This document shows, piece after piece, positions 1-41,430 of a stretch of DNA of 64,000 bases (positions are counted from its first letter, which is position 1; each line of letters begins with the position of its first letter). Source of the stretch: Butyrivibrio proteoclasticus. Lineage in GTDB: Bacteria; Bacillota; Clostridia; Lachnospirales; Lachnospiraceae. The notes under the pieces were generated by a model. It saw only the letters and a program-made list of their open reading frames with translations. It was not told the origin of the DNA and searched no databases. The position numbers and the translations under genes were made by a program. Location of the stretch: NCBI RefSeq assembly GCF_900115735.1, contig NZ_FOXO01000003.1, positions 62,001 to 126,000 on the forward strand, given 5' to 3'.

Positions 1-483
1 AATAGGATACGGCACAAAAGAAACTTTATAATTATAAGCGAATGTGCTCTGGTTCTTAACAACAAAGCTTCCGGATTTTTTTTGTATATACTCATATTCA
101 TCTACAAAATGAGATCTTGTAGAATTTCGATCCATTTCCTGAACCATTAAAATATCAGGATTTATCTCATCTATTCTGTCAATAATTCCATCAAGATTAT
201 GTCTGACTCTATCATATGTTGCAGTATTTACCATCTGCCCACCATCCATAAAGAAATCAGCATTGTCCCCAAGGGCTCCATATCCAATATTCCATGTCAT
301 TATCCTGATAGACTTATTGGTTTTTATTGTTTTGCCGCCATAATTTTCAATTTCCAGCTTTTCTACATCATCCGGTTTATACTCATCCATAGTAAGATAA
401 CCCAGTATTGTGACAAACAATAGCAAAACAAAAGCCAAAGCAGAACAAACTGTAATGATAAATGGTTTAACGATCTTTTTCAC
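1..483 (-). CDS. Endonuclease/exonuclease/phosphatase (EEP) family protein, membrane-anchored, 3' partial
   Basis: The gene runs off the left edge of the window, so only the N-terminal 161 codons are present. A GTG start at 483 follows a GGAGG ribosome site by a few bases. An N-terminal hydrophobic segment (about residues 6-28) should anchor the protein or serve as a signal. After a linker come the hallmarks of the EEP superfamily: RIMTWNIGYG (metal-binding Asn) and PDILMVQEMD (metal-binding Glu). Family members cleave phosphodiester or phosphomonoester bonds in nucleic acids, inositol phosphates or lipids. The anchor argues for an extracytoplasmic substrate, but the substrate cannot be told. 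A hairpin terminator sits directly upstream. Confidence 0.85.
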   Translation of the reverse strand, partial: MKKIVKPFIITVCSALAFVLLLFVTILGYLTMDEYKPDDVEKLEIENYGGKTIKTNKSIRIMTWNIGYGALGDNADFFMDGGQMVNTATYDRVRHNLDGIIDRIDEINPDILMVQEMDRNSTRSHFVDEYEYIQKKSGSFVVKNQSTFAYNYKVSFVPYPI

Positions 484-2956: not shown

Positions 2957-2994
2957 GATTCCTAATTGACCCCAAAATGCCGTTTCCTGTTATT

Positions 2995-15283: not shown

Positions 15284-15291
15284 GTATATCA

Positions 15292-24567: not shown

Positions 24568-24653
24568 TTTATTCCGTATATACTATTATAGCATTTGTTG
24601 TTTACATAAATTGCATATGAAATTTTAAATCTTGAATAGTGAAGGTATATTTC

Positions 24654-25535
24654 ATGTCAGATAAGCAAAAGAAAATTGTATCCACTCTAAGATGGGATTG
24701 TATCAGACTAGTTGTAGTGCTTCTTGCAGCATTGCTAATGTCTATCAATATCCAGACTTTCATTAATGGTGGCGGACTTATCCCGGGAGGTGCACAGGGA
24801 CTTACGATCGTTATCCAAAGAGCAGCTCTTAAGTATCTGAGCCTTCAGATTGCCTACTCTCCTATAAATATTTGCTTAAACGCAATTCCTGTCTATATCG
24901 GTTTTCGTTACATTGGCAAAAAATTTACTTTGTTTTCAATGATCATGGTTTTGGCCAATGGTTTTTTTGTAGATGTCATTCCGATTCACACCGTTACCCA
25001 TGACCCGCTTCTTGTGGCTGTTTTCGGTGGTATCTTAAATGCAGTTGCAATTACCATGTGTCTTGAGGTCGATGCAACAAGCGGAGGAACAGACTTTATT
25101 TCTATTTTCCTATCTCAAAGAAAAGGAATCGACGCATTTCCTATAATCCTTGCAGGAAATGTAATAGTTCTTACCATAGCCGGCGCAATGTTTGGATGGG
25201 AAAAGGCTCTTTACTCAATGATCTTCCAGTATGTATCCACGCAGACCCTGCACGTACTTTATCGAACATATCAACAAAGAACTCTTTTTATCATTACTGA
25301 TATGCCTGACAAAGTATGTTCAATGATTTATTCAACATGCAGTCACGGCGCAACTCTTATTGATGGCGAAGGCTCTTATGCCCATAAAAACAAAAAGATT
25401 GTATATTCGATTGTAAGTGCTTCCGATACCAGAAAGCTTATTCCTAAGATAAAAGAGATTGACCCAAACGCATTTATCAATTCTATCCGCACCGAAGAAG
25501 TTATGGGTAACTTCTATATGAGGCCAAGAGATTAA
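24654..25535 (+). CDS. YitT family membrane protein (DUF161 + DUF2179)
   Basis: A 293-residue protein with five or six N-terminal membrane segments and a C-terminal soluble domain (about 215-290) typical of DUF2179. Family marks include INGGGLIPGGAQGLTIV near residue 41, EVDATSGGTDFISIFLS near 145 and YSIVSASDTRKLIPKI near 260. The start is the ATG at 24654, eight bases after GAAGG. Function is not established; it stands alone between the AraC regulator and the terminator of the Pel operon. Confidence 0.88.
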   Translation: MSDKQKKIVSTLRWDCIRLVVVLLAALLMSINIQTFINGGGLIPGGAQGLTIVIQRAALKYLSLQIAYSPINICLNAIPVYIGFRYIGKKFTLFSMIMVLANGFFVDVIPIHTVTHDPLLVAVFGGILNAVAITMCLEVDATSGGTDFISIFLSQRKGIDAFPIILAGNVIVLTIAGAMFGWEKALYSMIFQYVSTQTLHVLYRTYQQRTLFIITDMPDKVCSMIYSTCSHGATLIDGEGSYAHKNKKIVYSIVSASDTRKLIPKIKEIDPNAFINSIRTEEVMGNFYMRPRD

Positions 25536-25544
25536 AACAGTATT

Positions 25545-25588
25545 AAAAAACTGATTCATGAACTTTAAATTCATGAACCAGTTTTTTT
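25545..25588. terminator. Bidirectional terminator between YitT and the Pel operon
   Basis: AAAAAACTGATTCATGAA (25545-25562) pairs with TTCATGAACCAGTTTTTTTT (25570-25588) apart from one bulge. A run on the left and T run on the right let it stop both the yitT-type transcript (plus) and the end of the Pel operon (minus, last stop at 25604). Confidence 0.85.
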
Positions 25589-25603
25589 ATTGAGAAAGTT
25601 TTC

Positions 25604-26980
25604 TTATTTTTTACTCCATAAAAGAGACTTTGTGCCTTCGCGCTGCGCCTGCATGTTCAGATAAACTGATGGCTCATTTTTCCCCTGTTCTTCTATTCCC
25701 ACGTAAATCTTTGTTCCGTCTTCTTTCAGCAGATCACTTGATACTCTTATAGTGCTCTGCATCTCCTGATCCTGACATAACTTTTTCAGATCCATAGAAA
25801 TCAGGGATTTCTCCAGCACCGTACCATTTTGATCTTCAATATAAATATACGGTAACAGATCAAAATACACAGGTGCAACGCCGTCATTTGTCATTGTTAT
25901 GCCTATTTCTGTAATGTTATTAACTGCATTTCTCATACTAAACGAGCTAACTCTGTATCTATAGCCAACAGTTCTCAGGACATCACATGCAGCTTCCAAT
26001 ACTCCGTCATCCCCTCTTGGGCATTCAGGTACCATAGGTCCTATAAATGTCATGTGAGAATCTTCAAGTAAAGATAGCGTTTTATCCAGATCATCTCCAA
26101 GCATAGTACTCATAGGTATTGAACTTGTAAACTCTCCGCCTATAGGTGCTATATTCCATACATCCTGAGCACTCCTTAAACCATTTTCTTCTTTGGTTGC
26201 ATTATAGTAGCCGCCGTTTTCTATCCAGCCAAGCCACTCCAGAGTATCCTCTTCTGCTCCTGTCATATCATTGAAAACGCCAAAGTCTTCAGGCATCTCC
26301 GCAAAAGGTCTTCTCATCAAAAGCCGCGCATAAGGAAAAGCATTCACATATTGCCCCACGTAAATGCTTCTAATCTCTGTCAGAGGCATTTTAGGAATTC
26401 CTGCAGGATAATATGTGTGCCACTCTCCCCAGTGCCCAAGGCTTCCAAGCTCAACATAAGCAAGGAACCCATCTTCTGAAAAATGCCTTCCTATCTCATT
26501 TATAACCTTTTCGTGTTCACTGATAAATGTCTTATTATTGTAATCAGGACAATATCCACACCCGTACTCTATCGTATAGAATTCTCCATCTTTTGTCTTT
26601 TCATAGAGCCAGTCCGGAATATCCATATGTTCTTCACTCTTTGGATAATCGCAAACAAATCTAAGGACAAGATGCTTGCCCTCTTTTCTCCATTCATCAA
26701 GATGATTGTCTGCCTCAATATCATCCCAGGCATAAACGCCTTCTTCAGGCTCAAGTTCTCGCCATTTCAAATTCATATAAACAAGAGTACTTGTCTGACA
26801 TAGTTCCACACTATCACAATCAGGCGCAAATCCCATATACGGATTGGGATAAACGCCATCATCCGCCTTATAAGTGATTACTTTTTCTTTTCTGAAATTA
26901 AAGAACATATAAAATGCTCCAACCAAAACCGCTGCAAAAATTGTAAAGACAAACAGCAGCATCAGCTTTTTTTTATGCAT
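25604..26980 (-). CDS. DUF4832-type TIM-barrel protein, membrane-anchored, last gene of the Pel operon
   Basis: A 458-residue protein with an N-terminal signal or anchor (about residues 5-27) and an extracytoplasmic domain. YPNPYMGFAP near residue 45, DDIEADNHLDEW and AYVELGSLGHWGEWH (about 190) resemble DUF4832/GH-like TIM barrels found next to cell-surface polysaccharide genes; the C-terminal 120 residues look like a beta-sandwich. A glycosidase or carbohydrate-binding role is inferred. The ATG at 26980 overlaps the stop of the DUF4956 gene (ATGCATAA) and has GGGGAG four bases upstream; an ATG 12 bases earlier is also possible. Translational coupling shows it belongs to the Pel operon. Confidence 0.72.
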   Translation of the reverse strand: MHKKKLMLLFVFTIFAAVLVGAFYMFFNFRKEKVITYKADDGVYPNPYMGFAPDCDSVELCQTSTLVYMNLKWRELEPEEGVYAWDDIEADNHLDEWRKEGKHLVLRFVCDYPKSEEHMDIPDWLYEKTKDGEFYTIEYGCGYCPDYNNKTFISEHEKVINEIGRHFSEDGFLAYVELGSLGHWGEWHTYYPAGIPKMPLTEIRSIYVGQYVNAFPYARLLMRRPFAEMPEDFGVFNDMTGAEEDTLEWLGWIENGGYYNATKEENGLRSAQDVWNIAPIGGEFTSSIPMSTMLGDDLDKTLSLLEDSHMTFIGPMVPECPRGDDGVLEAACDVLRTVGYRYRVSSFSMRNAVNNITEIGITMTNDGVAPVYFDLLPYIYIEDQNGTVLEKSLISMDLKKLCQDQEMQSTIRVSSDLLKEDGTKIYVGIEEQGKNEPSVYLNMQAQREGTKSLLWSKK

Positions 26981-27644
26981 TGTACTCCCCATTATACTGA
27001 ATGAGTGTTACATCTTTTACGTTATCAATATTTCTGATTTTCTCTTCAAAGAAGAAATCATCGCCCTTTACATTTACTTCTACAGCAAGCTCTGTAACAT
27101 TGCCTCTCATTGTCTTGGACTTTATGAAGTATTTCTTTTTACCAAATGCTCTTAGTATCTCATCACCGGTCTCTACTCCCTCGTAATGAATAACAGCAAT
27201 ATAAATCTTACCGTTTGATGATTTTGAATAGAAAATGGCAATCATGATTATCATGATAACTGCTGCAGCAAGTGTAAGCGCGTACATTCCGGCGCCCGCT
27301 GTAATACCGGTTGTTATAGACCAGAACAGATATAAAAGATCAAGTGGATCCTTGACTGCAGTTCTAAATCTTACAATTGAAAGTGCACCCACCATACCAA
27401 GAGAAATAACAACATTGGTACTGATTGCCAATGTAACCATACACGTAAGAACACACATGCCGATAAGTGTTACAGCAAAACTCTTTGAAAAAATGACACC
27501 TGCATAAAATCTTCTATATACAAGGTAGATCAAAATACCTAACAAAAGTGCAATAAACAGTGCAATTGCAATATTTCCGACGTCATAGGTTGAATAGGTA
27601 TCAGAATTTAAAATTGATTTTTTGATCATGTCTTTAACGCTCAT
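26973..27644 (-). CDS. DUF4956 membrane protein
   Basis: A 223-residue protein with four hydrophobic segments (about residues 25-150) and a soluble alpha/beta C-terminal domain (about 155-223). The motif MVGALSIVRFRTAVKDPLDLLYLFW near 90-110 is the signature of DUF4956. This family is very often next to VTC-domain and CotH genes, as here. Its start overlaps the VTC stop by four bases (ATGA type), and its end overlaps the DUF4832 start. The function is not known; partnership with the VTC protein is inferred. Confidence 0.85.
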   Translation of the reverse strand: MSVKDMIKKSILNSDTYSTYDVGNIAIALFIALLLGILIYLVYRRFYAGVIFSKSFAVTLIGMCVLTCMVTLAISTNVVISLGMVGALSIVRFRTAVKDPLDLLYLFWSITTGITAGAGMYALTLAAAVIMIIMIAIFYSKSSNGKIYIAVIHYEGVETGDEILRAFGKKKYFIKSKTMRGNVTELAVEVNVKGDDFFFEEKIRNIDNVKDVTLIQYNGEYNA

Positions 27645-28369
27645 ATAATATTCCTCTCATCTACATAATTATCGCTACCATTAAGGTACGCGGTCTTATC
27701 ACAACATAAAACATATTTTGACGCAGCTGTAAATTCACTTGAAGCAGGCGGACAAAGATCCCTTACAAGCTGCGGTAAAAATTCCGTATACTTTACCTCC
27801 ATAATGAGTTTATCCGCCGGAAGTGCAGCCAGTGTTGGAAGAGTAGCATCGAATATATCGTAACTTCCAATTGCAGCTCTAACCTTTTTATCAAAGGTGA
27901 TTCTGACCGTCCCTGCATCATGAATATAAGGAGTTCTGTCATAATCAACAATAACACGTGGTCTTAAAACATTACTTACACATTCAACATAAAATTCTTT
28001 TAACAGATTATTGTCTTTTTGCAAAAGAAATCCATAATCTCCGTCAAGTATTCTGTAAACCTCATCTCTAGTGAGCTTTGCCGATTCTTTATAAATGTAC
28101 TTATCGTTTTTTATTTTTCTTTCGAGCTTAATACCTTTATCAGAAAAATTATAAATCCTGATCCTGTATTTTTTTCTGAAGAAAACACCCATATCTTTTT
28201 CTTCATAAGCGCTGTTAAAGTAATCATCAAAATATAAACTTCTAATAAGATATTCTCCATTCACAGCATTGGGATCAAGTTTAAAGTAAGGCGAAAGCCT
28301 TGACTTTAAGGTTTCAAACTCCCCATAGCTGATCAGATATTTCCACTCATGTCTAAAGGTTTTATCCAT
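27641..28369 (-). CDS. VTC-domain (polyphosphate polymerase-like) protein
   Basis: A 242-residue protein of the VTC (vacuolar transporter chaperone) triphosphate-tunnel family. It keeps the basic and acidic residues that line the tunnel in Vtc4-type polyphosphate polymerases: HEWKYLIS, KYRIRIYNF, KLERKIKND, RPRVIVDYDRTPY and IMEVKYTEFLP. It has no membrane anchor and should be cytosolic. It lies between CotH and DUF4956 genes, a set seen together in many bacteria. It may supply polyphosphate or a phosphorylated group for surface modification; the substrate is unproven. Confidence 0.85.
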   Translation of the reverse strand: MDKTFRHEWKYLISYGEFETLKSRLSPYFKLDPNAVNGEYLIRSLYFDDYFNSAYEEKDMGVFFRKKYRIRIYNFSDKGIKLERKIKNDKYIYKESAKLTRDEVYRILDGDYGFLLQKDNNLLKEFYVECVSNVLRPRVIVDYDRTPYIHDAGTVRITFDKKVRAAIGSYDIFDATLPTLAALPADKLIMEVKYTEFLPQLVRDLCPPASSEFTAASKYVLCCDKTAYLNGSDNYVDERNII

Positions 28370-28397
28370 ATATGCACCGCTCTATCAATAATATTCG

Positions 28398-30197
28398 TTA
28401 TTCAACGACAGTATATCTGTCTATTGTACCATCTTCATTTATATAAAAACATAGCACACCATATGTTTTTCCAAGTTCAGCATCTTCATAATAATCAAAA
28501 CACTCCTGAGAATTGCCATTTTCGTCAATAGCATTCACCGAAAGGAAGTATTCGCCAGGTTCAGGAACATCGCAGCTAAACTTTGTCCATACACCTTCAT
28601 AAGAAGCCACTACGTCATCTCCATTGGAATTTCTAGACAAAACTGCCCTGTAAGTAACATCATCATGCTGAAAATCATAAGCAGTATCCCAGTTCATAAG
28701 AAGCTTTCCATCCTCAATAGCCGGTTCTCCAACATAGAAAGGCAACGGCTTTTCCAATGATGCAAGATAGCTTTCATAGTTCTCCTCAATCTGAGAAGGA
28801 AGTTCCAAAGCTACCTCATCATATTGCTCCGGAGTCAGCTGTTCATATGTGATATCGGGAGCATCCCATAAATACTGTTCTACTACTGCCCTGTAATCTG
28901 TTATAAGCTCACTGATTCTATTTGGAGTAATAACATTTTCTTTTAAATCAAGAATAGCATCATCAAGCTCTTTTCTAAAGCTATCAGATTTCAAGCATCT
29001 ATTAAATAACACATTTCCCCAATAGTTACTTACACCTTTTTCCCAGCTTCCATAATCTGATCTGGTTAGTAATTCATTTTCTTTAGTCCTGAAAGTACCA
29101 TCTAAGTCCCAGCTAATAAAATACCACACTTTTTCATTCTTGGGACTATAAAGATAGCAGTTTCTGCTCTGGGTATCAACATTTCCTGTCAAAAGATTAA
29201 ACGCAAGCCAATATGCAAGATTTTCCCTATCAAAATGCTCGTCTAGCACTTCATCTATCGAAATGGAATAATCATTAAGATCATTGAGCATATCAATGAG
29301 TTTTGTATGGTCGCTATCACCTTTTATTTCGAGGTACTGTTCAAATTTACTGACATCGTACTCAGGATCTGTCTCAAGTTTTATAACATCTTCATATCTG
29401 AAAAACTCAAAAAAGTTCACCTTATAAAGCTGACCATATCTGTCAAGGCCATGAGCCCTGAGAGCTGTTTTATTTAGCTGCTCAACCTGCGTATACAATC
29501 CATAATCTTCAAATCCGTCATCACTTCCATCTGTAAGATCATTGACATAAAGATGTACAAACTGGGTTCTAAGACTCATTAGCTGATCCACATTTTTCAA
29601 AATATCAAAGCCCAATTTATTTCTAAATCTAAGTCCATCAGTCTGATGCTTATTTAATGATATGGTAGTCTGACCATTCCAATTACCCTGATTCTCTTTG
29701 AGCTTGATCTTATAGTTCTTTTGATAATTTCTGCTTGAAGTCTGACCTCTTATCTGAACAGTCGCATTAGGAGCCGTCCTTCCGTATCCAAGATTCCCTG
29801 CTGGAATCCCCTCTTCTGTTCCCACCTGTAAAAGAGCTTCCACCTTATACCTTGGAATACCAAGTTCATCGTAGTAATAAGCAGAATGTGAATTCACTTC
29901 TTCCCAAGTATGATTTGTTCCTTCGCCAGCATTGCCCTGCCTGACAGTCAGATACATTGTCACTACATTTGTTCCATCATCCTCATACAAAGCATCCACA
30001 TCACGAATATGGCTGTTATCATTTCGAGACGTATTGATATTTATATTGTCTATGGCCTGCAAAAGAGTATTTGTCTCTACCTGCGTCTGATTATCCTCAT
30101 TAAAATAGTAATTATAGAGGTTGCTTCCGGCAATTGCAGCAGCGATCACAACAAACGCAAATATTATTCCTATAGCTTTTCTTTTTTTCTTTCTCAT
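28398..30197 (-). CDS. CotH-like kinase family protein, membrane-anchored
   Basis: A 599-residue protein with an N-terminal membrane segment (about 8-28) and a CotH kinase domain at about 130-410. The conserved region reads HQTDGLRFRNKLGFDIL, DYGLYTQVEQLNKTAL, LLTGNVDTQSRNCYLYSP and FISWDLDGTF, including the catalytic Asp and the N-x-Y-L-Y and WDLDGT motifs. Spore-coat CotH phosphorylates other coat proteins; here the protein is anchored outside and co-transcribed with Pel genes. The C-terminal 110 residues look like an Ig/fibronectin-type domain. It precedes the VTC gene by 28 bases. Its target is not known. Confidence 0.87.
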   Translation of the reverse strand: MRKKKRKAIGIIFAFVVIAAAIAGSNLYNYYFNEDNQTQVETNTLLQAIDNININTSRNDNSHIRDVDALYEDDGTNVVTMYLTVRQGNAGEGTNHTWEEVNSHSAYYYDELGIPRYKVEALLQVGTEEGIPAGNLGYGRTAPNATVQIRGQTSSRNYQKNYKIKLKENQGNWNGQTTISLNKHQTDGLRFRNKLGFDILKNVDQLMSLRTQFVHLYVNDLTDGSDDGFEDYGLYTQVEQLNKTALRAHGLDRYGQLYKVNFFEFFRYEDVIKLETDPEYDVSKFEQYLEIKGDSDHTKLIDMLNDLNDYSISIDEVLDEHFDRENLAYWLAFNLLTGNVDTQSRNCYLYSPKNEKVWYFISWDLDGTFRTKENELLTRSDYGSWEKGVSNYWGNVLFNRCLKSDSFRKELDDAILDLKENVITPNRISELITDYRAVVEQYLWDAPDITYEQLTPEQYDEVALELPSQIEENYESYLASLEKPLPFYVGEPAIEDGKLLMNWDTAYDFQHDDVTYRAVLSRNSNGDDVVASYEGVWTKFSCDVPEPGEYFLSVNAIDENGNSQECFDYYEDAELGKTYGVLCFYINEDGTIDRYTVVE

Positions 30198-30210
30198 ATA
30201 GATGCCTTTC

Positions 30211-31662
30211 TTATGCAGTTTTTGAATTTCTGCTTATAAATTCATACAATCTGCTACCAAGCCCATACCTTTTTTCTGCAACAATTGGCTGCGAACTTAA
30301 AATGTGATACGGAAGCTTTTGGGTATAATTCATAAGTTTTTTCAAGGTAAAAATCAGGTATACTATACTGCTTAAAGTAAATGCAAAGCCATAATACTTA
30401 GGATCAAGCTGCAGCGACATAAGGCTTAAAACAGTTGACAATGTTCCAAAGATGATAGCAGAACTTCTGGCATCTTTGTAATCCGTAAAGTACATAAGAA
30501 TAAGCATCAATACGTTTCCCACTGCATATGCGCCATAACCAACACTAAGAATTCTGAAGAATCCTTCCATCAGAGAGTCAAATCCTAAAGGAAGTCTCTC
30601 CAAAACAACAAGACCAACTGAAAGAATAAGTGCAGTTGCATAGAATTGCCTTCTGGCAGTGTAAATAAGCTCATGTTCAAGCACTGTTAACATTTCATTT
30701 TCAGCCTGCTCTATCTCCATGATTGAACCCGTTCCGTTAAACAGATCATAGTATTTTCTATACTTTGGATAAAAATTCACTTCTACTGATGCAACAAAAT
30801 TTATTGTTGTTATAAGAATCGTAATAAAGGCAAACAGTGCCGCAACATCATGCTGTGGCGCTCCGTAGTACAGCCCTTTTACCTTGACACCCACATCACT
30901 CATCCACGCTATCACCAGATGTGAAAACAAACCTACATTGGTAAAAAAGCCGATAAGCATCAAATCGCTGTACTCATCAAACCACGGAAGAAATGAATAG
31001 TGATTTTCCATAGAATTTGGAAAATATCCGTATAATAGAATCATGTCATAAACTATCATAACTCCATAGCCAACACTTACGCTAAGCATAAGAATGTAGA
31101 TTGAAACTCCTAAAAATGCACATCCAAAAAATGCTGTAAGAACAGCAAAAATAATAGCATATATGTATGACAGGAGTATTCCTTTGTAATCCTTTACTGC
31201 CGTCAAATAGTTCATCTGCGTCCATGCAGCAGTAAGTTCCATGAACAAAATAAAATTAAGAACACTTAACAAAAAATCCAGTCCTGAAAAGCAAAGAAAA
31301 ACTATCCACAAAACGCCACCTGCAGGCATCATTATTCCAAGGATTCCTTCCAGCGAAGGCAGTACATCACTTTCCTTTCCATCATACAAAAGATCCGCAA
31401 CATATCTTGTCATTACCATTGAAAAGATACTGTTAAGTATCATTGACGCTATGAGACAATAAGTTATCATGCAGACCAGCAAATCCCGATCTGCCTCAAT
31501 TAGTCCTGCCACCTTCCCTATGTAGTTGATGCTAAGAAGAAACACTACACCCAGAAGCATAGGTCCCGCTGTAATCATACCTGTATAGCCATAGGCTTTT
31601 AGCATCGACAGGACGCCTGTGGCCCTAAAGAGCTTTTTTAACTCAAACCCTATACCCGCCAT
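30211..31662 (-). CDS. pelG: PelG-like polysaccharide exporter
   Basis: A 483-residue, roughly 12-helix flippase-like protein of the PelG family (MATE/MOP superfamily). The N-terminus MAGIGFELKKLFR, the loop RYVADLLYDGKES and the pattern around YPKYRKYYDLFNGTGS near residue 300 match PelG. It should move the Pel polymer through the membrane with PelF. It starts one base after the PelF stop. Confidence 0.92.
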   Translation of the reverse strand: MAGIGFELKKLFRATGVLSMLKAYGYTGMITAGPMLLGVVFLLSINYIGKVAGLIEADRDLLVCMITYCLIASMILNSIFSMVMTRYVADLLYDGKESDVLPSLEGILGIMMPAGGVLWIVFLCFSGLDFLLSVLNFILFMELTAAWTQMNYLTAVKDYKGILLSYIYAIIFAVLTAFFGCAFLGVSIYILMLSVSVGYGVMIVYDMILLYGYFPNSMENHYSFLPWFDEYSDLMLIGFFTNVGLFSHLVIAWMSDVGVKVKGLYYGAPQHDVAALFAFITILITTINFVASVEVNFYPKYRKYYDLFNGTGSIMEIEQAENEMLTVLEHELIYTARRQFYATALILSVGLVVLERLPLGFDSLMEGFFRILSVGYGAYAVGNVLMLILMYFTDYKDARSSAIIFGTLSTVLSLMSLQLDPKYYGFAFTLSSIVYLIFTLKKLMNYTQKLPYHILSSQPIVAEKRYGLGSRLYEFISRNSKTA

Positions 31663-33078
31663 TTACAATTTAACTCCATAGTAAATCTCATTATATAAAC
31701 TGTTATATTTTTTCATCATCTGTGGATGCTGAAAAAACTTCTCCACTCTCCTTTTCCCATTTTGTCCCATTTCTATGCGTACCTGTCTGTCACTGCACAT
31801 TTTGTCCATGGCTTTAGCCAATCCTTCTCTATGCATAGGCGGAACAATAAATCCTGCTGTACCAAAAAAATCGTCACTGGCTCCTTCTATAAGTTCCCTA
31901 CAACAGCCTACATCCGTTGTTACCACAGGCCTTCCCGATGCAAATGATTCAAGAACCGACAATGGCTGTCCCTCAGAAATACTGGTCAGAACCGTAAAAT
32001 CCAGTTTTTCCATATATTTCACAACATCAACCTGACCAACAAATTTCAGATTTTTTATTTCAAGACTTTCGACAAGCTGATAGCACTCCTCTGCGTATTC
32101 CTCATCATCAATTCCCCCAAGGATATGCAGTCTTACGTTATCTCTCATTCCAGTAAGCTCATGAAATGCATATATAAGTGTTTTAACATCCTTTATCTGG
32201 GCAATTCTTATTATCGCACCTATGTCTATAAAACCATCATCCTCTTTATACGGAATATTACAAAACCTCTCATACCTGATACCGTTCGGAATAACTCTGC
32301 ATTTTGAAGGCTCTGCTCCCAACTCAACCTGTATCTTGTTGGCATTTTCAAAAAGGCACGAAATAAAAGTTGCTCTTTTATAAACTACATCTGAAAGCAT
32401 GTAAAAAAACTTTATCCAATGCCTTTTAAATGCCGGTATCACCCACTGTGCCCTGATTATTTCTTCTTCTCTCTCTCTTGAATAAATGCCATGTTCAGAT
32501 AATATAATCGGTTTTCCTGTCATATAGTTTCCAAGGCAAGCTAAAAGGCCACCATATCCCGTACAGATCGTATGATAGATGTCAGCTTCAGGGATCTTAC
32601 TCCCAATCAGATAAAGTACCGGCAAAAGCATGGATCTAATAGTATGGAATGTCTCCGCAAAAGCCACATATGGGTACTTTTCCTTACAAAGACGCGTCAG
32701 GATTTCAAGAAATTCTTCGCTCATAAGAAAACTTGCAGGATTATAATGTCTTTTTTGATACATATCAAAAAGGATCTTCCAATCCGGCCTTTCACAGTCT
32801 ATAAGCTTTTCTATAGCTTCCTTCTCATCATCTGAGAGTTTAAACTTATCCTTCTTCCTTGCTCTTACCTTCAAAGCGTCATCCAAAAACACCTCATGAA
32901 CTTCTTTTACATTAGATGGCAATTCGTATTTATATTTTCCCTTGTCTTTGGCATGCGCACCGATAACCCACAAAATAAATGTGTGCTCCTGAAGAGCTTG
33001 GATATAGCCATGCATCCAGGTTGCAACTCCGCCATATGTATAAGGGTAACTTCCTTCAAGAATAAGACAAATTCTCAT
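31663..33078 (-). CDS. pelF: PelF-like GT4 glycosyltransferase
   Basis: A 471-residue cytosolic GT4 glycosyltransferase of the PelF family, which polymerises Pel from UDP-GalNAc/GlcNAc. The N-terminal ILEGSYPYTYGGVATWMHGYI (7-27) and the C-terminal E-x7-E motif EGQPLSVLE near residue 370 with VTTDVGCCREL fit closely. It is sandwiched between the PelA-type deacetylase gene (3 bases away) and pelG (1 base). There is no signal or membrane segment. Confidence 0.94.
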   Translation of the reverse strand: MRICLILEGSYPYTYGGVATWMHGYIQALQEHTFILWVIGAHAKDKGKYKYELPSNVKEVHEVFLDDALKVRARKKDKFKLSDDEKEAIEKLIDCERPDWKILFDMYQKRHYNPASFLMSEEFLEILTRLCKEKYPYVAFAETFHTIRSMLLPVLYLIGSKIPEADIYHTICTGYGGLLACLGNYMTGKPIILSEHGIYSREREEEIIRAQWVIPAFKRHWIKFFYMLSDVVYKRATFISCLFENANKIQVELGAEPSKCRVIPNGIRYERFCNIPYKEDDGFIDIGAIIRIAQIKDVKTLIYAFHELTGMRDNVRLHILGGIDDEEYAEECYQLVESLEIKNLKFVGQVDVVKYMEKLDFTVLTSISEGQPLSVLESFASGRPVVTTDVGCCRELIEGASDDFFGTAGFIVPPMHREGLAKAMDKMCSDRQVRIEMGQNGKRRVEKFFQHPQMMKKYNSLYNEIYYGVKL

Positions 33079-33081
33079 AAC

Positions 33082-34905
33082 CTACTTCCTTGTTATAGTT
33101 ACTGTTTCATTATTTGCATCAAGAAGATATAGCGTTTCATTAAGCTTTATCAGCTTTCCACCTTCAACTTTTACAAGTTTCCCTTCCGAAACTCTTATAA
33201 AATAATATGCATCATCGATAAGTCCGTCAGATGTGATAGTAAGCTGTAAGTCAGATATCTCTGTATCAGGTATTACATTGACATACCTCTGAACTGCTCC
33301 TGCCATGCATGATCCTGTCAGATGTCTTATATCAGGTGCTGAAGTATCTATCCAGGTCATATACTCATCAAGATTTCTGCTAAGTTGTTCCCAGCCTAAA
33401 GCTGCGCCTCTGTCTTCATCCAAAAGATCATCCGGATGCATGAAATGGGAAGCTACAAAGTGTAAATTCAGTTCTGAAAAAGACGCCAACTTCATGTAAT
33501 CGTCAATTATGCAACTGGATACTATTCTAGGCGTCTCAACAATCCCGTCCTCAGAAACTTCATACTCCTGAGAATATGCATCAGGTCCCTCAAAATAGAT
33601 ACTCGCTATCGCTTTGATATTCGGAAACTCTTCTCCTATAAGCGCCCTTCCTTCAGGAGATAAAACATCTGAAGGCGGCACATAAACAGAAAGTTCAGTA
33701 TTTGTAAAAATGCCCGTTGAAAACTTTGTCAGCTCATCAAGAGAATTGTACATGGCATCATAGCTTTCCCAAACCTTATAACCAATGTCATCTTCATAAA
33801 CATAATCCGGTCCGCACAAAGGCTGGTGATTGTAACCATGGTACCCAATCTCTCCCCCTTTATTAAGAAGCATATTCCCATAGTAGTAATAATCTGCTGT
33901 ACTTTCGTTGGAAGGAAGAATTTCTCCCGTATCATCCTCATACGTTTCAATTATCAAACCTGTGTAGGGAATATTATGTTTTTCTCCAAGAGAAAGAACT
34001 TTAGGCCACCAAACAGCTGAGTAAAACTGGGCAATTCCCATTCCGTAATCTCTCCTGATATACTCACCGTCACCAGATGGAGTAGGTGATGGAAAATCAT
34101 CAAGATAAAAAGTGGAAGCATTTATGACAGGGTAAACAAAAATATCCTCCAAAAGTGTATAAGCACTTGAATAAATCCCCCTGTAAGCCTTTGAAACATA
34201 ACTAAAGTTACAGACAACAAACTTTCCTTTTCCATATTCCTGACTCCACACAAGCGGCACATTGTCTGTCGTATGCGCATATACTTTAGTATCAGATCCA
34301 AGCTGTACAGTCAGGGCTGACTCATATGCATCATCAACATAATATGTCTTTTGAGCCCCCAGCATATAATTCTCATCAGAAACAAAATCTCTTACAGGAA
34401 CAAAGTTATCTCCAATCTCAACTATCCCTAGTTTTGAAGTGATAATATCAAAGACCTCTGACCTTGTCGGAGTTATTCCTATAAGCAATCGTCCACCACT
34501 TTTCACCCAGTCAGTAAGTGTAAGGATATCTTCACCAAATACCGTGTAGTCATTAGTTGCAATAACAACTGTTTTATAATCTGACAGTCTGTCTTTTTTT
34601 CTGTTATCTTCAATTGAGTTCTTAGCCAAATCAATAATGTCATAGGAAACTCTCATGTCGGCAAATATCTGTTCATACTGTGGTGTAATCAATATGCTTG
34701 TATCGTTACCACTATCTGATATCAATAAACAACTCTTTTTTGACGAAAGTTCTTTCATATGAACAACGTTATCTGTAGGAAGAAGCGTCACCTGCTCATC
34801 GGTCCCCTCGTATAGGATTCCGACACGCTCAATAAGAAGCAGTAAAAACATTGCAAAAAAGCCAATGGTCACATTTGCCAAAGCAATAAATCGTTTTTTC
34901 TTCAT
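33082..34905 (-). CDS. pelA: PelA-type polysaccharide deacetylase (DUF2194), membrane-anchored
   Basis: A 607-residue protein with an N-terminal membrane anchor (about 8-27), a central region resembling glutamine-amidotransferase-like folds (about 50-260) and a deacetylase (CE4-like) domain. Metal-site motifs are YLDDFPSP and IGYHGYNHQP. It corresponds to the deacetylase half of PelA; the hydrolase half is absent, as in Gram-positive clusters that encode only the deacetylase domain. The ATG at 34905 overlaps the PelE stop (ATGA) and has GAGGAG eight bases upstream, so a longer frame from 34929 is rejected. It should deacetylate the emerging polymer. Confidence 0.88.
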   Translation of the reverse strand: MKKKRFIALANVTIGFFAMFLLLLIERVGILYEGTDEQVTLLPTDNVVHMKELSSKKSCLLISDSGNDTSILITPQYEQIFADMRVSYDIIDLAKNSIEDNRKKDRLSDYKTVVIATNDYTVFGEDILTLTDWVKSGGRLLIGITPTRSEVFDIITSKLGIVEIGDNFVPVRDFVSDENYMLGAQKTYYVDDAYESALTVQLGSDTKVYAHTTDNVPLVWSQEYGKGKFVVCNFSYVSKAYRGIYSSAYTLLEDIFVYPVINASTFYLDDFPSPTPSGDGEYIRRDYGMGIAQFYSAVWWPKVLSLGEKHNIPYTGLIIETYEDDTGEILPSNESTADYYYYGNMLLNKGGEIGYHGYNHQPLCGPDYVYEDDIGYKVWESYDAMYNSLDELTKFSTGIFTNTELSVYVPPSDVLSPEGRALIGEEFPNIKAIASIYFEGPDAYSQEYEVSEDGIVETPRIVSSCIIDDYMKLASFSELNLHFVASHFMHPDDLLDEDRGAALGWEQLSRNLDEYMTWIDTSAPDIRHLTGSCMAGAVQRYVNVIPDTEISDLQLTITSDGLIDDAYYFIRVSEGKLVKVEGGKLIKLNETLYLLDANNETVTITRK

Positions 34906-35795
34906 GCGCCCATCTCCTCTTTTTTCCACAGCTTCACTATATCCCTTATTTCTTTGGAATAATAATTACCGCTTTCAGATGTGGTTTTTATCATTTCTTT
35001 TAACTTAATACTGGCACCCGTCTCATAATAATATCTGAAACGCAGAAGCCAGTTCCTCTCATCAGAGGGCCAATTTTGCTCCATCGTAGAAAGAGCGACA
35101 TCTGCTCTGATATAGAGTTTTGAATCCAAAAGGCTCTTAACAAGTCTCTCGTAATCATCAATATTGGGATTAAGCGTAAGCTTTGTTATGAGTAGCTGGT
35201 GGTAGGTATTTCTCTGAATCTCAAGAAGTTGTCCCTGAACCATACCGCTTGATATATACTGGGCAAGAAAAGATACGTATTCATCAAGAAGTCCTTCCTT
35301 GCCGGGATTGGTAGCATATTCGCTGCTGTACTCCTGAAGTTTTAATTCATATTCTTTAGACAATTCAACCATGGCAGTTGTTGCATAATGAACCACTTCC
35401 ACATCATCATTCATTCTTGCCTGATTGATGACAGGAATATATTTTTTTGTATCGGTCATAAGAACATCCATCATAACTGATCGTCTTACAGTAGGATCAT
35501 TCATGATAAGTGCGTCCTCAAGAGGAACAATATCATCAGACTCTGCTTCCTGCCTAGGTAAAAGAGACTGTTCAATAAGATTACTCCTCATAAGTTCAAG
35601 GTCTCCGTTCTTATTGCCAACCTTTCCAAGCTTTATCATAACAGTTATTATCACAGCGCAAAGAGCGCCCCATAGCGGAATGCAAACAACCATGACCATC
35701 ATGAGACTATCCACTTTTAAAACGCCAAGCTTCATAAAAACGAATACAGCAAGGCATATACCAAAATGTATGAGCAGAAAAATAAGCACTATCAT
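34902..35795 (-). CDS. pelE: PelE-like membrane protein
   Basis: A 297-residue protein with two N-terminal membrane helices (about 3-22 and 30-55) and a helical soluble C-terminal region (about 95-290) that looks TPR-like. This layout and the position between pelD and pelA fit PelE, which binds PelD and PelG in the inner-membrane synthesis complex. Sequence motifs are weak, so the name depends on context. It overlaps both neighbours by four bases (ATGA), indicating translational coupling. Confidence 0.75.
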   Translation of the reverse strand: MIVLIFLLIHFGICLAVFVFMKLGVLKVDSLMMVMVVCIPLWGALCAVIITVMIKLGKVGNKNGDLELMRSNLIEQSLLPRQEAESDDIVPLEDALIMNDPTVRRSVMMDVLMTDTKKYIPVINQARMNDDVEVVHYATTAMVELSKEYELKLQEYSSEYATNPGKEGLLDEYVSFLAQYISSGMVQGQLLEIQRNTYHQLLITKLTLNPNIDDYERLVKSLLDSKLYIRADVALSTMEQNWPSDERNWLLRFRYYYETGASIKLKEMIKTTSESGNYYSKEIRDIVKLWKKEEMGA

Positions 35796-37897
35796 CCCAC
35801 ACTCTCCACTACATCACACTTAAGCCCCATATTACGAAATCTCTTTAGCACAATAGATTCACTGCTTTCATCCACCTGTGAAGCCAAAAGATATATATTG
35901 TTGTCCCTGCCAAGGCCAACAATATCATTGTTACGAATCTTGGTCTGAAGCATTTCATCAATCTCCATAATGGTTCTGTTTTCTCGCATGATCCTAAAGA
36001 GTCTAAAATCTGTCAATTTATTATCAGCCATTTCTTTCTGAATTTTAAATTGCTGGATAAAATAGTCATATTTAGCGATCTGAGTGCCCTCGACATAAGT
36101 TTTATCTGCAACAACTTTTTGATATTCCCAGGCTTTGATTATGAAGTTCTCCATAAGTCCGCTTAAAATTCTGATAAGATTTGTGTAATATGTGCTGATC
36201 TGGATATACTCAACTTGATATATCATTATCAAAACACTAAGGACGCCATCTGACTTTATCCCGGCGACATAGGTTGGATATCCCTCTCTTACATCCCTGT
36301 TGAACCAGATTTCGCCCTTCTTAACTTCCTCTATAACCTGACTGTAATCCTCCAGATTTATTGATTTTTTTAGTTTTACACTTATTTGCTCTGAAGCAAC
36401 GTTAAGTCTTGCAAATCTTGCGTTTGGATCATTAATTGTATAGATAGCAATTGATCTGTTATCAAGGACATCTTCCATAACAGGAATAGATTCAGCAAAA
36501 ATTTCCTCAGGAACAGTAGTACTAAGCTTCTTTACAACATCAAATATTCTTCCAAAGCCATCTCTACTCCCTATAAGATCCTGTTTATACTGATTCTTAT
36601 ACTCCATTGCCTCTTCATATAGCCTGTTAACAAAGTCTTTTTCCTCTTTGAGAAGCTTGTTTTCATCTGTTATAAATGTTCGCTCTTCATCCCGGCTTTG
36701 TTTGATATATCCGCAAACAGCAGCTGCAACCAAAAGAAGTATAAACGGTATCCAATTGCTTGGATCATAAAACAATAACAATCCATTAGTTCCCTGCCTA
36801 TAATAAGCCAGAATCAACGAAAGTATTTCTATAAATGCTGTGATACCGCCAACACCTGTTCCATATACCAATGCCATCAGAACTACAAACAATAGCCTCA
36901 CATCAATCATCCTGAACTGCACACTACCATTAGAATAATAGTTATATATTTCAACCAAAAACGCTCCAAGGATAAGCTCAACAAGCATCATTATTTTTCC
37001 ATTCAACCTGAGTTTATCACGTATTATTTCTGTTATTTTTCTTTTGGCATGATAATTATTCCGATATTCCTCCACATAGTTTTCTATTTCAGCTACCGCA
37101 TCTTTTTTGGCAAACCAGCCATAGAACTGCCTTGCTACATCCTGTCCATAGTCAAAACGTCCTTTTATGGATGATCCGATATAAGACACATTTGCCATCT
37201 TATAAATCTTCCTTATCGATGAAAAAGCCTCTTCATAAGTAGTACTTGCGCCACTTCTAAGATATATGGTCTCATAGGTTCCATAGCTGTACTCATCTTC
37301 TTCCCAGGCATCAAACATTCTTTTCAAAAAAGCAGCCAGATCGTCAACAGACAAAAAATCTGCTATCTCATCGCCCATTGCTTTGATCTCAACTTTTTCA
37401 TTTCTTTCAAGGGAATCAAAAATACGACACCAGAAATCATCTTTATAGTGCCCACTTATCAAATGCGGTGAATATATGATTTTTACTGAAATTTGGTATT
37501 GTTCAGCATAATATCTGCAGATAGACTCTACAGAACTGTATATGATAGAGTCACTGTTCTCAATATCAAGAAGTGCCTCATCAGATGTAATGTAAACAAA
37601 TTGTTTTACTTTAGACTTTCTACAAAGCGAAAGGACATTTCGAAGCTGCTCAATCTCACCAACTTCGTAACTGTCCTTATTTATAAAATGCGACACAAAT
37701 ACAACGCGCTCGAAGCCGTAGGTAAAAAACAGAGTCGTAAAATCGTCACCCATTATTGATTTTTTAAACCATCTGATATTACCTGCCTTTTTACTCTCAA
37801 GCTCTTGTCCGCAAAGTATTATATTATCTGCGCCAAATGCAGTTTCGAGGGAATCCTTCGAAAAATAACCATTACTACCTACTACAAGAGTATCCAT
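35792..37897 (-). CDS. pelD: SDR-PelD fusion, c-di-GMP receptor of Pel synthesis
   Basis: A 701-residue protein. Residues 1-250 look like an atypical SDR/NAD-epimerase fold (VVGSNGYFS near the start and YITSDEALL near 105). Then come four hydrophobic segments (about 300-400), a coiled coil, a GAF-like domain (about 450-590) and a degenerate GGDEF domain. RNND (655-658) lies four residues before GRDNN (663-667), which is the exact spacing of a c-di-GMP I-site before a dead GGDEF. I infer it activates the Pel complex on binding c-di-GMP. SDR-fused PelD has been described in Gram-positive Pel clusters. It is spaced 48 bases from the GH3-like gene. Confidence 0.88.
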   Translation of the reverse strand: MDTLVVGSNGYFSKDSLETAFGADNIILCGQELESKKAGNIRWFKKSIMGDDFTTLFFTYGFERVVFVSHFINKDSYEVGEIEQLRNVLSLCRKSKVKQFVYITSDEALLDIENSDSIIYSSVESICRYYAEQYQISVKIIYSPHLISGHYKDDFWCRIFDSLERNEKVEIKAMGDEIADFLSVDDLAAFLKRMFDAWEEDEYSYGTYETIYLRSGASTTYEEAFSSIRKIYKMANVSYIGSSIKGRFDYGQDVARQFYGWFAKKDAVAEIENYVEEYRNNYHAKRKITEIIRDKLRLNGKIMMLVELILGAFLVEIYNYYSNGSVQFRMIDVRLLFVVLMALVYGTGVGGITAFIEILSLILAYYRQGTNGLLLFYDPSNWIPFILLLVAAAVCGYIKQSRDEERTFITDENKLLKEEKDFVNRLYEEAMEYKNQYKQDLIGSRDGFGRIFDVVKKLSTTVPEEIFAESIPVMEDVLDNRSIAIYTINDPNARFARLNVASEQISVKLKKSINLEDYSQVIEEVKKGEIWFNRDVREGYPTYVAGIKSDGVLSVLIMIYQVEYIQISTYYTNLIRILSGLMENFIIKAWEYQKVVADKTYVEGTQIAKYDYFIQQFKIQKEMADNKLTDFRLFRIMRENRTIMEIDEMLQTKIRNNDIVGLGRDNNIYLLASQVDESSESIVLKRFRNMGLKCDVVESVG

Positions 37898-37944
37898 TAC
37901 GGCCTATTCTCCCTAAATACTTTATTCCCCACTTACGTTCTGCC

Positions 37945-39234
37945 TTAATTTCCTTTTGCTATCTCCTCTACTCTGTCAGCATATTTTATTCTATATATCC
38001 TGTTAAGCGATTCATCAATCCTTTCCTCTGATATTTCCCCATTATTAACAGCTTCTAAAAGACCATTATATGCTGTCTCAAAATCCTCAGGAAGGTAGAT
38101 TATATCCGCACCGGCCTTTATTGCCATAACTGCTGCCTGATCCGATGTGTAATACTCTGTGATAGCCCCATCATCCAGAGCTCCGGTAACTACTATTCCA
38201 TCAAAGCCCAAAACTCCTCTTAATTCATCCTCTATGATCACAGATGAAAGTGAAGCAGGAGTGTTATCCCCAACCACGTTTGGAAAAGAGGCATTTGAAA
38301 TCATAATTGCTGTAACATTTCCATTGTCTATCACATTTTTAAACAATGCATATTCACTTGTAGCAAGCATCTCTGTGGAGTCATCAATCTGCTCCATGCT
38401 GCTTGAAGTATCCCCCTGCTTAGGGAAAGAATATGCACATGACCATATTCCCTCATCATGAAGTGCCTGCGTAAATGATGCCGTCACATTTTTTACCGTA
38501 TCTATATCTGTACCATAAAACCCATTTTCTGTGAAATCCATATTGGGTGAAAGATCAAAATTAAAACCATATTTATACATAGAATCTGCAACAGCTTGTC
38601 CATTTTCTGCAGCTGCATTTTCATCCGTAAAATCTTTTATCTCACCAAGTCCAATCGATGAACTGATCGCACCGTTTCCCCATTCATTAACCATGGTAAA
38701 AATAGGATATTTACTCATAGAAGATGTAGTAGCAAGCATTTCAGTTATCTGATCTTCAGACTTAATATTCTTGGCTGAATAAACTATACCGCCTACTGCA
38801 TATTGAGAAAGAGCATCCTGCGTGCCACTTCCGGCCTTAACCGCAGTTGCCACACCGGTAAGCTGTTCAGGTGTAATGATAAAAAGACCTGCAACCTTAT
38901 CCTCAACCGGCATTGCCTCTATCATATCTGAAACGACTTCATTCATTATATCTTCTTCAGACATCTCCTCAGGCTCACTTACAGCCTCAGGAGTCTCAAT
39001 AACTATTTCCTGACTGCTTTCAAGAACTGAAGCCTCCTCTTCTCCTTCTGAAGACTCAGCATTTTTCCCTCCACCAAACAAATTCTTTAAAAAAATCACC
39101 CCAAAAACGATAGCCAAAACAAACAGTATAACAACAAAAGTCAGTAATATATACGCAATGAGCTGGCTCCTTTTTCTCCTGTTTCTCCGGGCCATTCGCT
39201 GCTCATCAAAATCCTGTTCATCTAATCTACTCAT
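37945..39234 (-). CDS. Membrane-anchored GH3-like protein lacking catalytic motifs, first gene of the Pel operon
   Basis: A 429-residue protein: a basic cytosolic tail (1-23), a membrane helix (about 25-48), an acidic linker and a GH3 N-terminal (NagZ/BglX-like) TIM barrel. The family's key motifs are degraded. The usual VDxEGG reads VNEWGN; the usual KHFPGHGDT reads YSFPKQGDT (268-276), losing Lys and His; the nucleophile motif VxTDALxMGA reads VVTGALDDGA, with Gly351 where the Asp should be. It is probably a non-hydrolytic polymer-binding protein. The ATG at 39234 follows GGGGA by five bases; the earlier ATG at 39312 would need a longer N-terminus without ribosome site. Confidence 0.8.
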   Translation of the reverse strand: MSRLDEQDFDEQRMARRNRRKRSQLIAYILLTFVVILFVLAIVFGVIFLKNLFGGGKNAESSEGEEEASVLESSQEIVIETPEAVSEPEEMSEEDIMNEVVSDMIEAMPVEDKVAGLFIITPEQLTGVATAVKAGSGTQDALSQYAVGGIVYSAKNIKSEDQITEMLATTSSMSKYPIFTMVNEWGNGAISSSIGLGEIKDFTDENAAAENGQAVADSMYKYGFNFDLSPNMDFTENGFYGTDIDTVKNVTASFTQALHDEGIWSCAYSFPKQGDTSSSMEQIDDSTEMLATSEYALFKNVIDNGNVTAIMISNASFPNVVGDNTPASLSSVIIEDELRGVLGFDGIVVTGALDDGAITEYYTSDQAAVMAIKAGADIIYLPEDFETAYNGLLEAVNNGEISEERIDESLNRIYRIKYADRVEEIAKGN

Positions 39235-39374
39235 AAAATCCCCGTTAACTGCAAAACTTTTTCTGTTATCTATTTTATCATATTTTATAAGTCCAATGAA
39301 GAACCAATGCATAGTCTTTCTATACTATTCACAAAAAATTCAGAGAATATAACTGCACATCAAAAGTTCTGTCC

Positions 39375-39426
39375 GGAACCAAAAATCAAGGGCAGAAGCT
39401 TCATCATATTACCTGCTTCTGCCCTT
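39375..39426 (-). terminator. Terminator inside the Pel operon leader
   Basis: AAGGGCAGAAGC (39388-39399) pairs perfectly with GCTTCTGCCCTT (39415-39426). On the minus strand it is followed by GATTTTTGG. It lies 150 bases upstream of the first gene of the operon and downstream of a strong promoter, so it is either the end of a separate RNA or a conditional terminator. Confidence 0.7.
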
Positions 39427-39774
39427 ATACCGAGTACTCATCATCTAAATTAAAATTCTCTGCGTCCAATGGACCCTTCCTCCGATTCTCAGCTCATCGT
39501 TCCATTAACTTTTGCATTCATATGCTGTGGTTGCAAGATTTAAACATGCCCTAACCACTAATCATGTACTTGAATTGCTGTCATTCTTATTACTTCTTTG
39601 AACTTCGAACTTAAAACTTTAAAAAACTAAACTTAGTATGCTGGTGGACCGTACCATCCTTTCTCTGAATATTTTAATTAACTATCCCTTTGGACCGTAC
39701 CTCCCTTTCTTTCTCCAATCTGTAATCTATACTATATATTGATTGGAAAAGTATTTTTGTATCTCTTACTTGAT
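39388..39774 (-). ncRNA. Candidate leader or independent noncoding RNA of the Pel operon
   Basis: Between the promoter at 39809-39781 and the hairpin at 39426-39388 lies about 385 bases of minus-strand transcript with no credible gene. It holds the motif GGTACGGTCCA twice (near 39700 and 39650) and a third partial version (GGAAGGGTCCA near 39472), plus several GGA triplets and a short GTCC-ATT-GGAC hairpin. No known riboswitch core is apparent to me. It could be a regulated leader or a small RNA. The remaining intergenic sequence to 40260 is AT-rich with two palindromes. Confidence 0.45.
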
Positions 39775-39780
39775 GGTTTT

Positions 39781-39809
39781 ATTATATTTTCATCCTTTCA
39801 TTTTGTCAA
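39781..39809 (-). promoter_or_regulatory. Consensus sigma-A promoter of the Pel operon
   Basis: TTGACA (39809-39804) and TATAAT (39786-39781) are both exact consensus and 17 bases apart on the minus strand. Transcription should start near 39774, giving a leader of about 540 bases to the first gene. Such a perfect promoter suggests strong transcription that is limited later. Confidence 0.8.
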
Positions 39810-39880
39810 TACATTTTATAATTTTCTTTTATTTATTTTGACTACTTAATTATCATCCTTTAGTATTCAGTTAATTATTC

Positions 39881-39927
39881 TAATTGTATATTCTTTATAT
39901 ACAATTAGGTATATTACTTTAATATAC
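39881..39927. promoter_or_regulatory. Two AT-rich palindromes upstream of the Pel promoter
   Basis: TAATTGTATA...TATACAATTA (39881-39907, 10-bp arms) and GTATATTA...TAATATAC (39909-39927, 8-bp arms) share a TATAC-containing core and have centres 24 bases apart. They lie between the Pel operon and the lipid kinase gene and could be operators for either. No cognate regulator is known here. Confidence 0.35.
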
Positions 39928-40260
39928 AAAAGGATGCCTATATATTGTATTTTTCACGATGCTCAATTCTCATACACTTAAAAGCGCTCCCCCAAAAACT
40001 TGTATTCTTTTCGAAATTTAGTTTATATTTATATGTTCTCAAAAAATAATTTTTCTTGAACCTGTGCCTGAGTTTTGCCACTTTGAATCAAAAGATAAAA
40101 GCCAGTCAAGTATTTTTTTGTTTTTCTAAAGAAAAAACAAAAACCTATGTATAAATGCTCTGTACATAAGACACAAAAATAATTATGATATTACAAGGGC
40201 TTATAATTACGCCCATTTATTCAATCTACAAATTCCAATATAAGAAAAGGAACTTCACCC

Positions 40261-41256: not shown

Positions 41257-41258
41257 AA

Positions 41259-41390: not shown

Positions 41391-41423
41391 GCTTTGGACT
41401 TCATTAAAAGTCCAAAGCTTTTT
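41386..41423 (-). terminator. Terminator of glyA
   Basis: Perfect 16-bp stem (41386-41401 with 41408-41423) around a six-base loop. The A-rich left side is shared with the preceding hairpin, giving T5-6 after the stem on the minus strand. Confidence 0.85.
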
Positions 41424-41430
41424 ATATTGA

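Follow-up and report, generated by a model that had tools for sequence, protein, structure and literature searches.

A conserved structured RNA and a GH3-like gene ahead of a nine-gene Pel-type operon in Butyrivibrio proteoclasticus

We describe a Pel-type exopolysaccharide gene cluster and its upstream neighbors in a 64,000-nucleotide (nt) stretch of Butyrivibrio proteoclasticus contig NZ_FOXO01000003.1 (hereafter the window, whose numbering is used for all coordinates). A nine-gene Pel operon of published type probably sits here directly behind a resident locus that consists of a conserved structured RNA and a GH3-like gene. The Pel operon type is already known; what is new is the anatomy of the resident GH3 gene and RNA with the pel block behind them. 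We further propose, as a reading that could fall either way, that 39,785–39,380 represents one member of a stand-alone class of Lachnospiraceae noncoding RNA (ncRNA) not described before, and that in a single Butyrivibrio lineage the RNA-GH3 locus took up a Pel operon, which it now transcribes. The class is marked by a consensus promoter, repeated GGUACRGWCC-type elements, covarying helices, and a predicted intrinsic terminator, and it is kept beside a membrane-anchored GH3 protein across genera, even where the GH3 catalytic residues are lost. The features are as follows:

39781..39809, minus strand: promoter of the RNA, TTGACA-17-TATAAT, 12/12 consensus positions, kept in relatives
39380..39785, minus strand: conserved structured RNA, about 400 nt, ends approximate (alignments, covariation, no Rfam match)
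39388..39426, minus strand: terminator-like 12-bp hairpin and short T run at the 3' end of the RNA; the helix pairs despite sequence change
37945..39234, minus strand: membrane-anchored GH3-like protein without GH3 catalytic motifs (PF00933, 4.3e-38)
35792..37897, minus strand: PelD with N-terminal degenerate epimerase-like domain and RxxD I-site (position, homologues, RxxD)
34902..35795, minus strand: PelE-like protein (position and homologues in other pel loci)
33082..34929, minus strand: PelA deacetylase, DUF2194 (PF09960, 1.2e-150; 9ZAU, E 4.9e-57)
31663..33078, minus strand: PelF glycosyltransferase (NF038011, 9.5e-100)
30211..31662, minus strand: PelG (PF16933, 1.4e-131)
28398..30197, minus strand: CotH-like protein (PF08757; profile matches solved CotH 5jd9, 1.3e-15)
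27641..28369, minus strand: VTC-domain protein (PF09359; profile matches yeast Vtc4 3g3q, 7.3e-06)
26973..27644, minus strand: DUF4956 membrane protein (PF16316)
25604..26992, minus strand: DUF4832 protein, likely a surface glycoside hydrolase (PF16116; activity from S. intermedius SIR_1591)
25545..25587, minus strand: 20-pair terminator-like hairpin closing the run, 3' of the cluster (terminator scan)

The nine genes pelD-E-A-F-G, cotH, VTC, DUF4956, and DUF4832 span 37,897 to 25,604 on the minus strand, and the open reading frame (ORF) of the GH3-like gene ahead of them opens at 39,312 with a likely start at 39,234. A preliminary description of this DNA had called ten minus-strand genes in this order and with these domains, which ORF calls and family searches bear out. 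Its claim of tight spacing also stands, with intergenic distances in transcription order of 47, -4, -28, 3, 0, 13, 28, -4, and -20 nt, and no terminator-like match lies between any two of the ten genes, as it had stated. The ten-gene operon that it drew from 39,809 holds in part: the gene run is there, but a 12-bp hairpin with a T run separates the promoter from the first gene. Its inclusion of the GH3-like gene in the Pel unit has to be given up; relatives carry GH3 without pel at this place, and the conserved Pel unit therefore comprises nine genes. Terminator-like matches in 24,000–42,000 are at chance level (10 found versus 9.9 expected), and the scan could not list the 39,426–39,388 hairpin because its loop is 15 nt. 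Promoter-like matches overall are likewise at chance level (67 versus 60.3 +/- 7.9), with the sole 12/12 match at 39,809–39,781.

The case for a resident locus comes from occupied and unoccupied sites. Genomes were sampled at the level of genus (79), family (299), and order (295); L numbers denote fetched loci and G numbers genomes. In the genus sample, pelG is above cut-off in 20/79 genomes, and GH3 heads ten of these 20 pel loci (the window and nine others), with pelD beginning 4–53 nt behind it in each by ORF calls. Among 20 fetched genus loci in which the RNA has no adjacent pel, GH3 is the next gene in 19, while L173 has none; in L172 it lies 1,082 nt beyond the RNA. The same 20 stretches carry SHMT in 20 cases, DagK in 19, and YitT behind GH3 in nine. 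GH3 is thus a core-locus gene at SHMT/DagK also where pel is absent, and we therefore rule out that it is a Pel gene by descent. YitT reappears beyond the pel cluster in 8/10 GH3-headed loci, so that pel, standing between GH3 and YitT in these eight, reads as an insertion into the GH3-YitT order. Inspection by eye shows a hairpin and T run after GH3 in 12/18 pel-free loci versus 0/10 loci with pel. Because pelD follows GH3 so closely, with no terminator between them in ten Butyrivibrio species, this one among them, GH3 transcription most likely continues into pel.

In a tree of PelA, PelF, and PelG, all ten GH3-linked clusters fall into one clade (local support 1.0). Two clusters that are not GH3-linked, L108 and L113, are nested in it, and more than one event is therefore needed; one pel insertion followed by two later moves would be the simplest history. 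Some genomes with a pel-free RNA locus carry pel elsewhere (L113/L174 in G365, L120/L176 in G299, L122/L175 in G300, L108/L173 in G375). Beside the two nested clusters, several observations count against the resident-locus reading with read-through. GH3 is missing at the head of 10/20 genus pel loci, although contig ends truncate or nearly truncate L116, L123, and L125; five of the 18 pel-free loci have no evident terminator behind GH3, and one more has a hairpin without a T run; L112 shows no YitT after the cluster as far as its retrieved sequence reaches, and L114 ends at that point; L109 is without VTC and DUF4956; and pel may have its own promoter in the 3' end of GH3, where a 9-of-12 match lies at 38,006–37,978.

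The GH3-like protein is itself degenerate. Aligned with solved GH3 enzymes, it has Gly at the position of the catalytic Asp, and KHFPGHG reads YSFPKQG (we take this Asp and the KHFPGHG residues to be the catalytic ones); by alignment, the window protein therefore lacks both hallmarks of an active GH3 beta-N-acetylhexosaminidase. Both are lost in 10/10 pel-linked copies. None of 29 genus copies retains KH and seven retain the Asp; of 81 GH3 sequences (the 80 relatives used below plus the window) 52 keep Asp and 33 keep KH, none of the latter labelled Butyrivibrio. Since the motif loss is common to pel-free copies of the genus, the apparent pseudoenzyme state is a genus feature and not linked to pel. 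These counts also bear on whether GH3 has become a working tenth Pel gene, for example as a recruited surface protein that binds the polymer. The short distance (4–53 nt) from GH3 to pelD in 10/10 GH3-headed loci would suit such a role, as would a surface protein with a carbohydrate fold that could bind the polymer; we nevertheless consider it unlikely, given that pel-free copies share the motif loss and that GH3 is missing from half of the genus pel loci. The nearest named GH3 loci are from Butyrivibrio sp. Su6 (85% protein identity) and AE2015 (86%), L267 and L268, both with pel at the site. By eye, the GH3-like genes of L203 and L206 start with a long acidic-codon run before the GH3 domain, in contrast to Butyrivibrio GH3, which has a short basic tail before the membrane anchor.

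The stretch of about 400 nt between promoter and GH3 holds no ORF of at least 80 aa on either strand. It folds better than 100/100 shuffles (z -2.6), and its 3' 12-bp hairpin reaches z -3.9 over 71 nt. There is a single full-length match in its own genome. With nhmmer (E <= 0.1), the RNA is detected at each of the ten GH3-headed pel loci and at 0/60 of the other fetched pel loci, and its 3' 211 nt are found in 54/79 genus genomes (E <= 0.01). A pel-specific leader is ruled out by that last count, set against 20/79 for pelG.

Outside the genus, the RNA changes in sequence and retains its layout, and its helices covary. Thirteen copies from beyond the genus, aligned without regard to structure (A8; L192, part of the earlier alignment A7, was dropped, and L189, L190, L191, L198, L199, and L200 were unused), support a 20-pair structure of three helices with 92.5% paired cells and nine pairs with two-sided changes. 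Its covariation score is 0.289 versus 0.188 +/- 0.016 in shuffles (0/500 reach it), and slid partners give at most 0.118. A second alignment (A9) holds 26 further copies, none identical to A8, taken from the 27 matches of at least 86 bits among the 73 reported below, with L321 left out; here 99.0% of cells are paired, the covariation score is 0.226 versus 0.173 +/- 0.008 (0/500 reach it), and three pairs show double changes versus 1.3 in shuffles (15/500 reach it). The helices with the best support are the first one in A8 and, in both alignments, the terminator helix. Some of the evidence pulls the other way. In neither alignment does the number of pair types exceed shuffles (207/500 reach it in A8, 186/500 in A9); the A9 count leans toward the structure because the model that selected and trimmed the A9 rows already contains it; helix P4, with four pairs, reaches 75.5% paired cells in A8 and shows no double change there; the first helix has only one-sided changes in A9; and the nine Butyrivibrio pel-linked copies alone show slight covariation, at 3/60 pairs.

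A model built from A8 (R2) ties the RNA to GH3 beyond Butyrivibrio. The GH3 loci, the best 80 of 179 relatives, were found by protein alone, and none holds an R2 training sequence. With both strands searched, R2 matches 73/80 (E <= 0.01), always upstream of GH3 and on the same strand; the records of the 80 loci name genera such as Butyrivibrio, Kineothrix, Eisenbergiella, and Acetatifactor. In the 700 nt ahead of the match, TTGACA-16..18-TATA[AC]T is present in 67/73 loci, a looser pattern in 72/73, and a GGTAY-type element in 63/73; in a control stretch of 700 nt inside GH3, both promoter patterns give 0/73. As a further control, R2 run on 60 RNA-free pel loci (1.08 Mb) yields no match at E <= 0.01 and two at E <= 1. 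R2 matches 86/299 family genomes (E <= 0.01), some of which trained it, and 18/295 order genomes (E <= 0.001), one of them outside the family. Upstream of GH3 in L203 (G184), the RNA is longer, at about 1.1 kb, and carries at least five consecutive GGTAY-type elements; it looks to have grown through repetition of a module.

This association is incomplete in several respects. R2 misses L284 (partly found by the earlier model, R1), L286, L290, L325, L326, L345, and L346; in a previous collection of 30 GH3 loci, which were the top-ranked ones from a search with a cut-off of E <= 1e-40, it matches 18 (E <= 1e-5), nine of them training sequences; R1 found only 8/299 family genomes; and R2 also matches away from GH3, including once in the genome of the window but outside the window (E 3.5e-5, 43.4 bits). 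This second, weaker match, at L247:2862-3018 on the minus strand (own contig C40:54361-54517), has a similar 3' end and a different-looking 5' part, and a similar one occurs in G207 (L248).

Whether the RNA acts alone or as a leader turns largely on its neighbors. As a cis-acting leader of GH3, attenuator- or riboswitch-like, it would control pel through its terminator in ten species, and its nearly invariant position ahead of GH3 in the same orientation (73/80), its terminator-like 3' end, and a GH3-pelD interval without a terminator in the ten would all be expected. Against this stand the matches away from GH3, of which 20 without adjacent GH3 were chosen from the family-genome matches and inspected: in 8/19 that have a next gene, this gene is on the opposite strand and so could not be served by a leader. 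A 599-aa gene also separates the RNA from GH3 in L118, and L173 lacks a GH3 gene after the RNA. Control of GH3 and pel by such a leader is therefore a possibility that we hold only tentatively. The opposite-strand neighbors, together with the promoter and the terminator, lead us to favor a stand-alone ncRNA over a leader, by a slight preference. Several GH3 copies seem, by eye, to have their own -10-like element behind the RNA terminator.

No family catalogued in Rfam 15 accounts for this stretch. None scores at or above its gathering threshold when the window RNA and 17 relative loci are searched, which rules out an Rfam-known family; in E-value mode, the segment 39,200–40,300 gives five matches only, all far below threshold. 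A word search of the main texts of three ncRNA-discovery papers (PMC11109978, PMC8040213, and PMC6429828) gave one unrelated passage and no match to the RNA. A CsrB-like sponge was rejected: the repeats do not all carry GGA, and by hand reckoning GGA looks no more frequent than expected from composition. LoaP was likewise rejected as a partner, since the one above-cut-off LoaP in the genome lies on another contig and no link is shown. Elsewhere in the window, Clostridiales-1 RNA (RF01699, 78.9 bits; 15132–15291, minus strand) bears no likeness by eye to the GH3-upstream RNA, and 6S/SsrS RNA (RF00013, 57.8 bits) lies at 2965–3173 on the minus strand.

The pel block is a new instance of the published streptococcal/clostridial nine-gene type, not a new system. 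The preliminary description had proposed a deacetylase-type Gram-positive Pel core; the core order matches, the PelA deacetylase has its family hit, and PelF and PelG, on whose profile matches that proposal had been staked, both have them. PelF and PelG are adjacent and accompanied by PelD, PelE, and PelA_DA, the arrangement that defines Gram-positive Pel clusters, and pelG is single-copy in the genome. The identities of PelD and PelE stand on other grounds than profiles: in the Pfam search PelD has only an epimerase-like match above cut-off and PelE no family, and a single-sequence search with PelD gave no meaningful match, but homologues of both sit at the same place in other pel loci, and the PelD RxxD I-site is present in 63/63 rows with letters there (alignment of 65 PelD rows). 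The genome has 41 GGDEF matches. PelA_DA residues 139–606 align with the solved B. cereus enzyme 9ZAU, and the carbohydrate-esterase motifs (DD, HxxxH, catalytic His, Arg) that the text of PMC13254593 names for it were matched by eye.

A polymer other than Pel is quite improbable. Whitfield et al. (PMC7112168) leave function open for divergent clusters, for example in Roseburia. However, the homology of PelF, PelG, and PelA_DA is clear and extends to alignment of the deacetylase motifs, and Streptococcus intermedius, with the same gene set, is described in PMC12345266 (2025) as producing a polymer rich in N-acetylgalactosamine (GalNAc). That account reports deletion of every cluster gene, with the five core genes required for Pel.

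The last four genes form a contiguous block with the Pel core, as had been described, and constitute a cotH-type accessory set. The same description proposed that they modify, anchor, or phosphorylate the polymer or a partner, which is a conjecture. In the VTC protein, a putative polyphosphate polymerase, RxR, ERK, and other residues, presumably including the catalytic ones of the tunnel domain, are invariant in 16 homologues and align with Vtc4; the profile of CotH, a putative protein kinase, aligns with 5jd9 over segments that include NxD and WDxD, whose residues we take to belong to the kinase core. Single-sequence searches with VTC and CotH gave no meaningful match, and a DUF4832 profile search against solved structures gave no match. 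DUF4956 is present in 219/299 family genomes and PelG in 53/299. Among the best 30 DUF4956 loci with 1.5-kb flanks, 29 have a VTC gene and none a pel-type CotH gene or PelG, and the VTC-DUF4956 pair is therefore portable. From seven of eight larger stretches around such pairs, 4/7 scanned neighboring proteins are Cthe_2159 carbohydrate-binding proteins; in L378, L380, L381, and L384, VTC-DUF4956 adjoin such a gene with no pel in the stretch. Two genus pel loci, L109 and L113, keep cotH and DUF4832 and lack VTC and DUF4956, as natural variants.

In S. intermedius, according to PMC12345266, all four accessory genes were deleted singly and Pel was still made. Deletion of DUF4956 (SIR_1592) or CotH (SIR_1594) altered the Pel level and lowered aggregation, deletion of the polymerase had no aggregation phenotype, and SIR_1591 (DUF4832) is an active glycoside hydrolase whose deletion had no phenotype. 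By analogy, the DUF4832 protein of the window is likely a surface glycoside hydrolase. That paper describes the three-gene accessory arrangement as not found outside pel; our sample agrees, yet the VTC-DUF4956 pair is common elsewhere. We speculate that the pair may make and move polyphosphate for surface use, with CotH as its outer partner in pel.

By analogy with studied relatives, cyclic di-GMP (c-di-GMP) would bind the RxxD site of PelD, PelF would polymerize GalNAc units, PelG would export the chain, PelA_DA would partly deacetylate it, and the DUF4832 hydrolase would trim or release the polymer. CotH and the VTC-DUF4956 pair are accessory, and the GH3-like gene probably belongs to an older locus with the conserved structured RNA as its upstream neighbor.

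The RNA is the part most worth following and matters more than the Pel part. With matches in 86/299 family genomes and a place outside Rfam 15, it is a candidate new ncRNA class of gut and rumen bacteria, and its fixed position beside a glycosidase that has apparently turned pseudoenzyme in one genus offers a way into what it does. Through the Pel part, a known biofilm pathway gains a Butyrivibrio with 41 GGDEF matches and a PelD that keeps its I-site, which makes a cotH-type cluster testable under c-di-GMP control, which is reportedly missing in streptococci. The site would also illustrate how a polysaccharide operon comes under the transcription of a resident locus.

Finally, the elements described here can be set beside known systems. 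The RNA shares a consensus promoter, covarying helices, and a terminator-like 3' hairpin with attenuator leaders and stand-alone bacterial ncRNAs, and differs from catalogued ones in having no Rfam 15 family at gathering score. The GH3-like protein shares fold family and overall alignment with NagZ-type GH3 beta-N-acetylhexosaminidases (6k5j, YbbD), from which it differs in its membrane anchor and lost motifs. VTC-DUF4956 pairs outside pel place the same two proteins side by side, but without CotH. The closest counterparts are the streptococcal and clostridial Pel clusters as presented in PMC7112168 (2020) and PMC12345266 (SIR_1594 to SIR_1591), which have the same nine genes, the CotH-like, poly-phosphate polymerase, DUF4956, and DUF4832 group lying contiguously behind pelDEADAFG. 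They share with the window a truncated, deacetylase-only PelA and a degenerate N-terminal epimerase-like PelD domain, an extra domain described in PMC7112168 as apparently inactive. The window PelD retains a GGDEF-like C-terminal part with RxxD, which both accounts give as missing in streptococci, and, unlike in the streptococcal and clostridial type, a resident GH3-like gene and a structured RNA precede pel.

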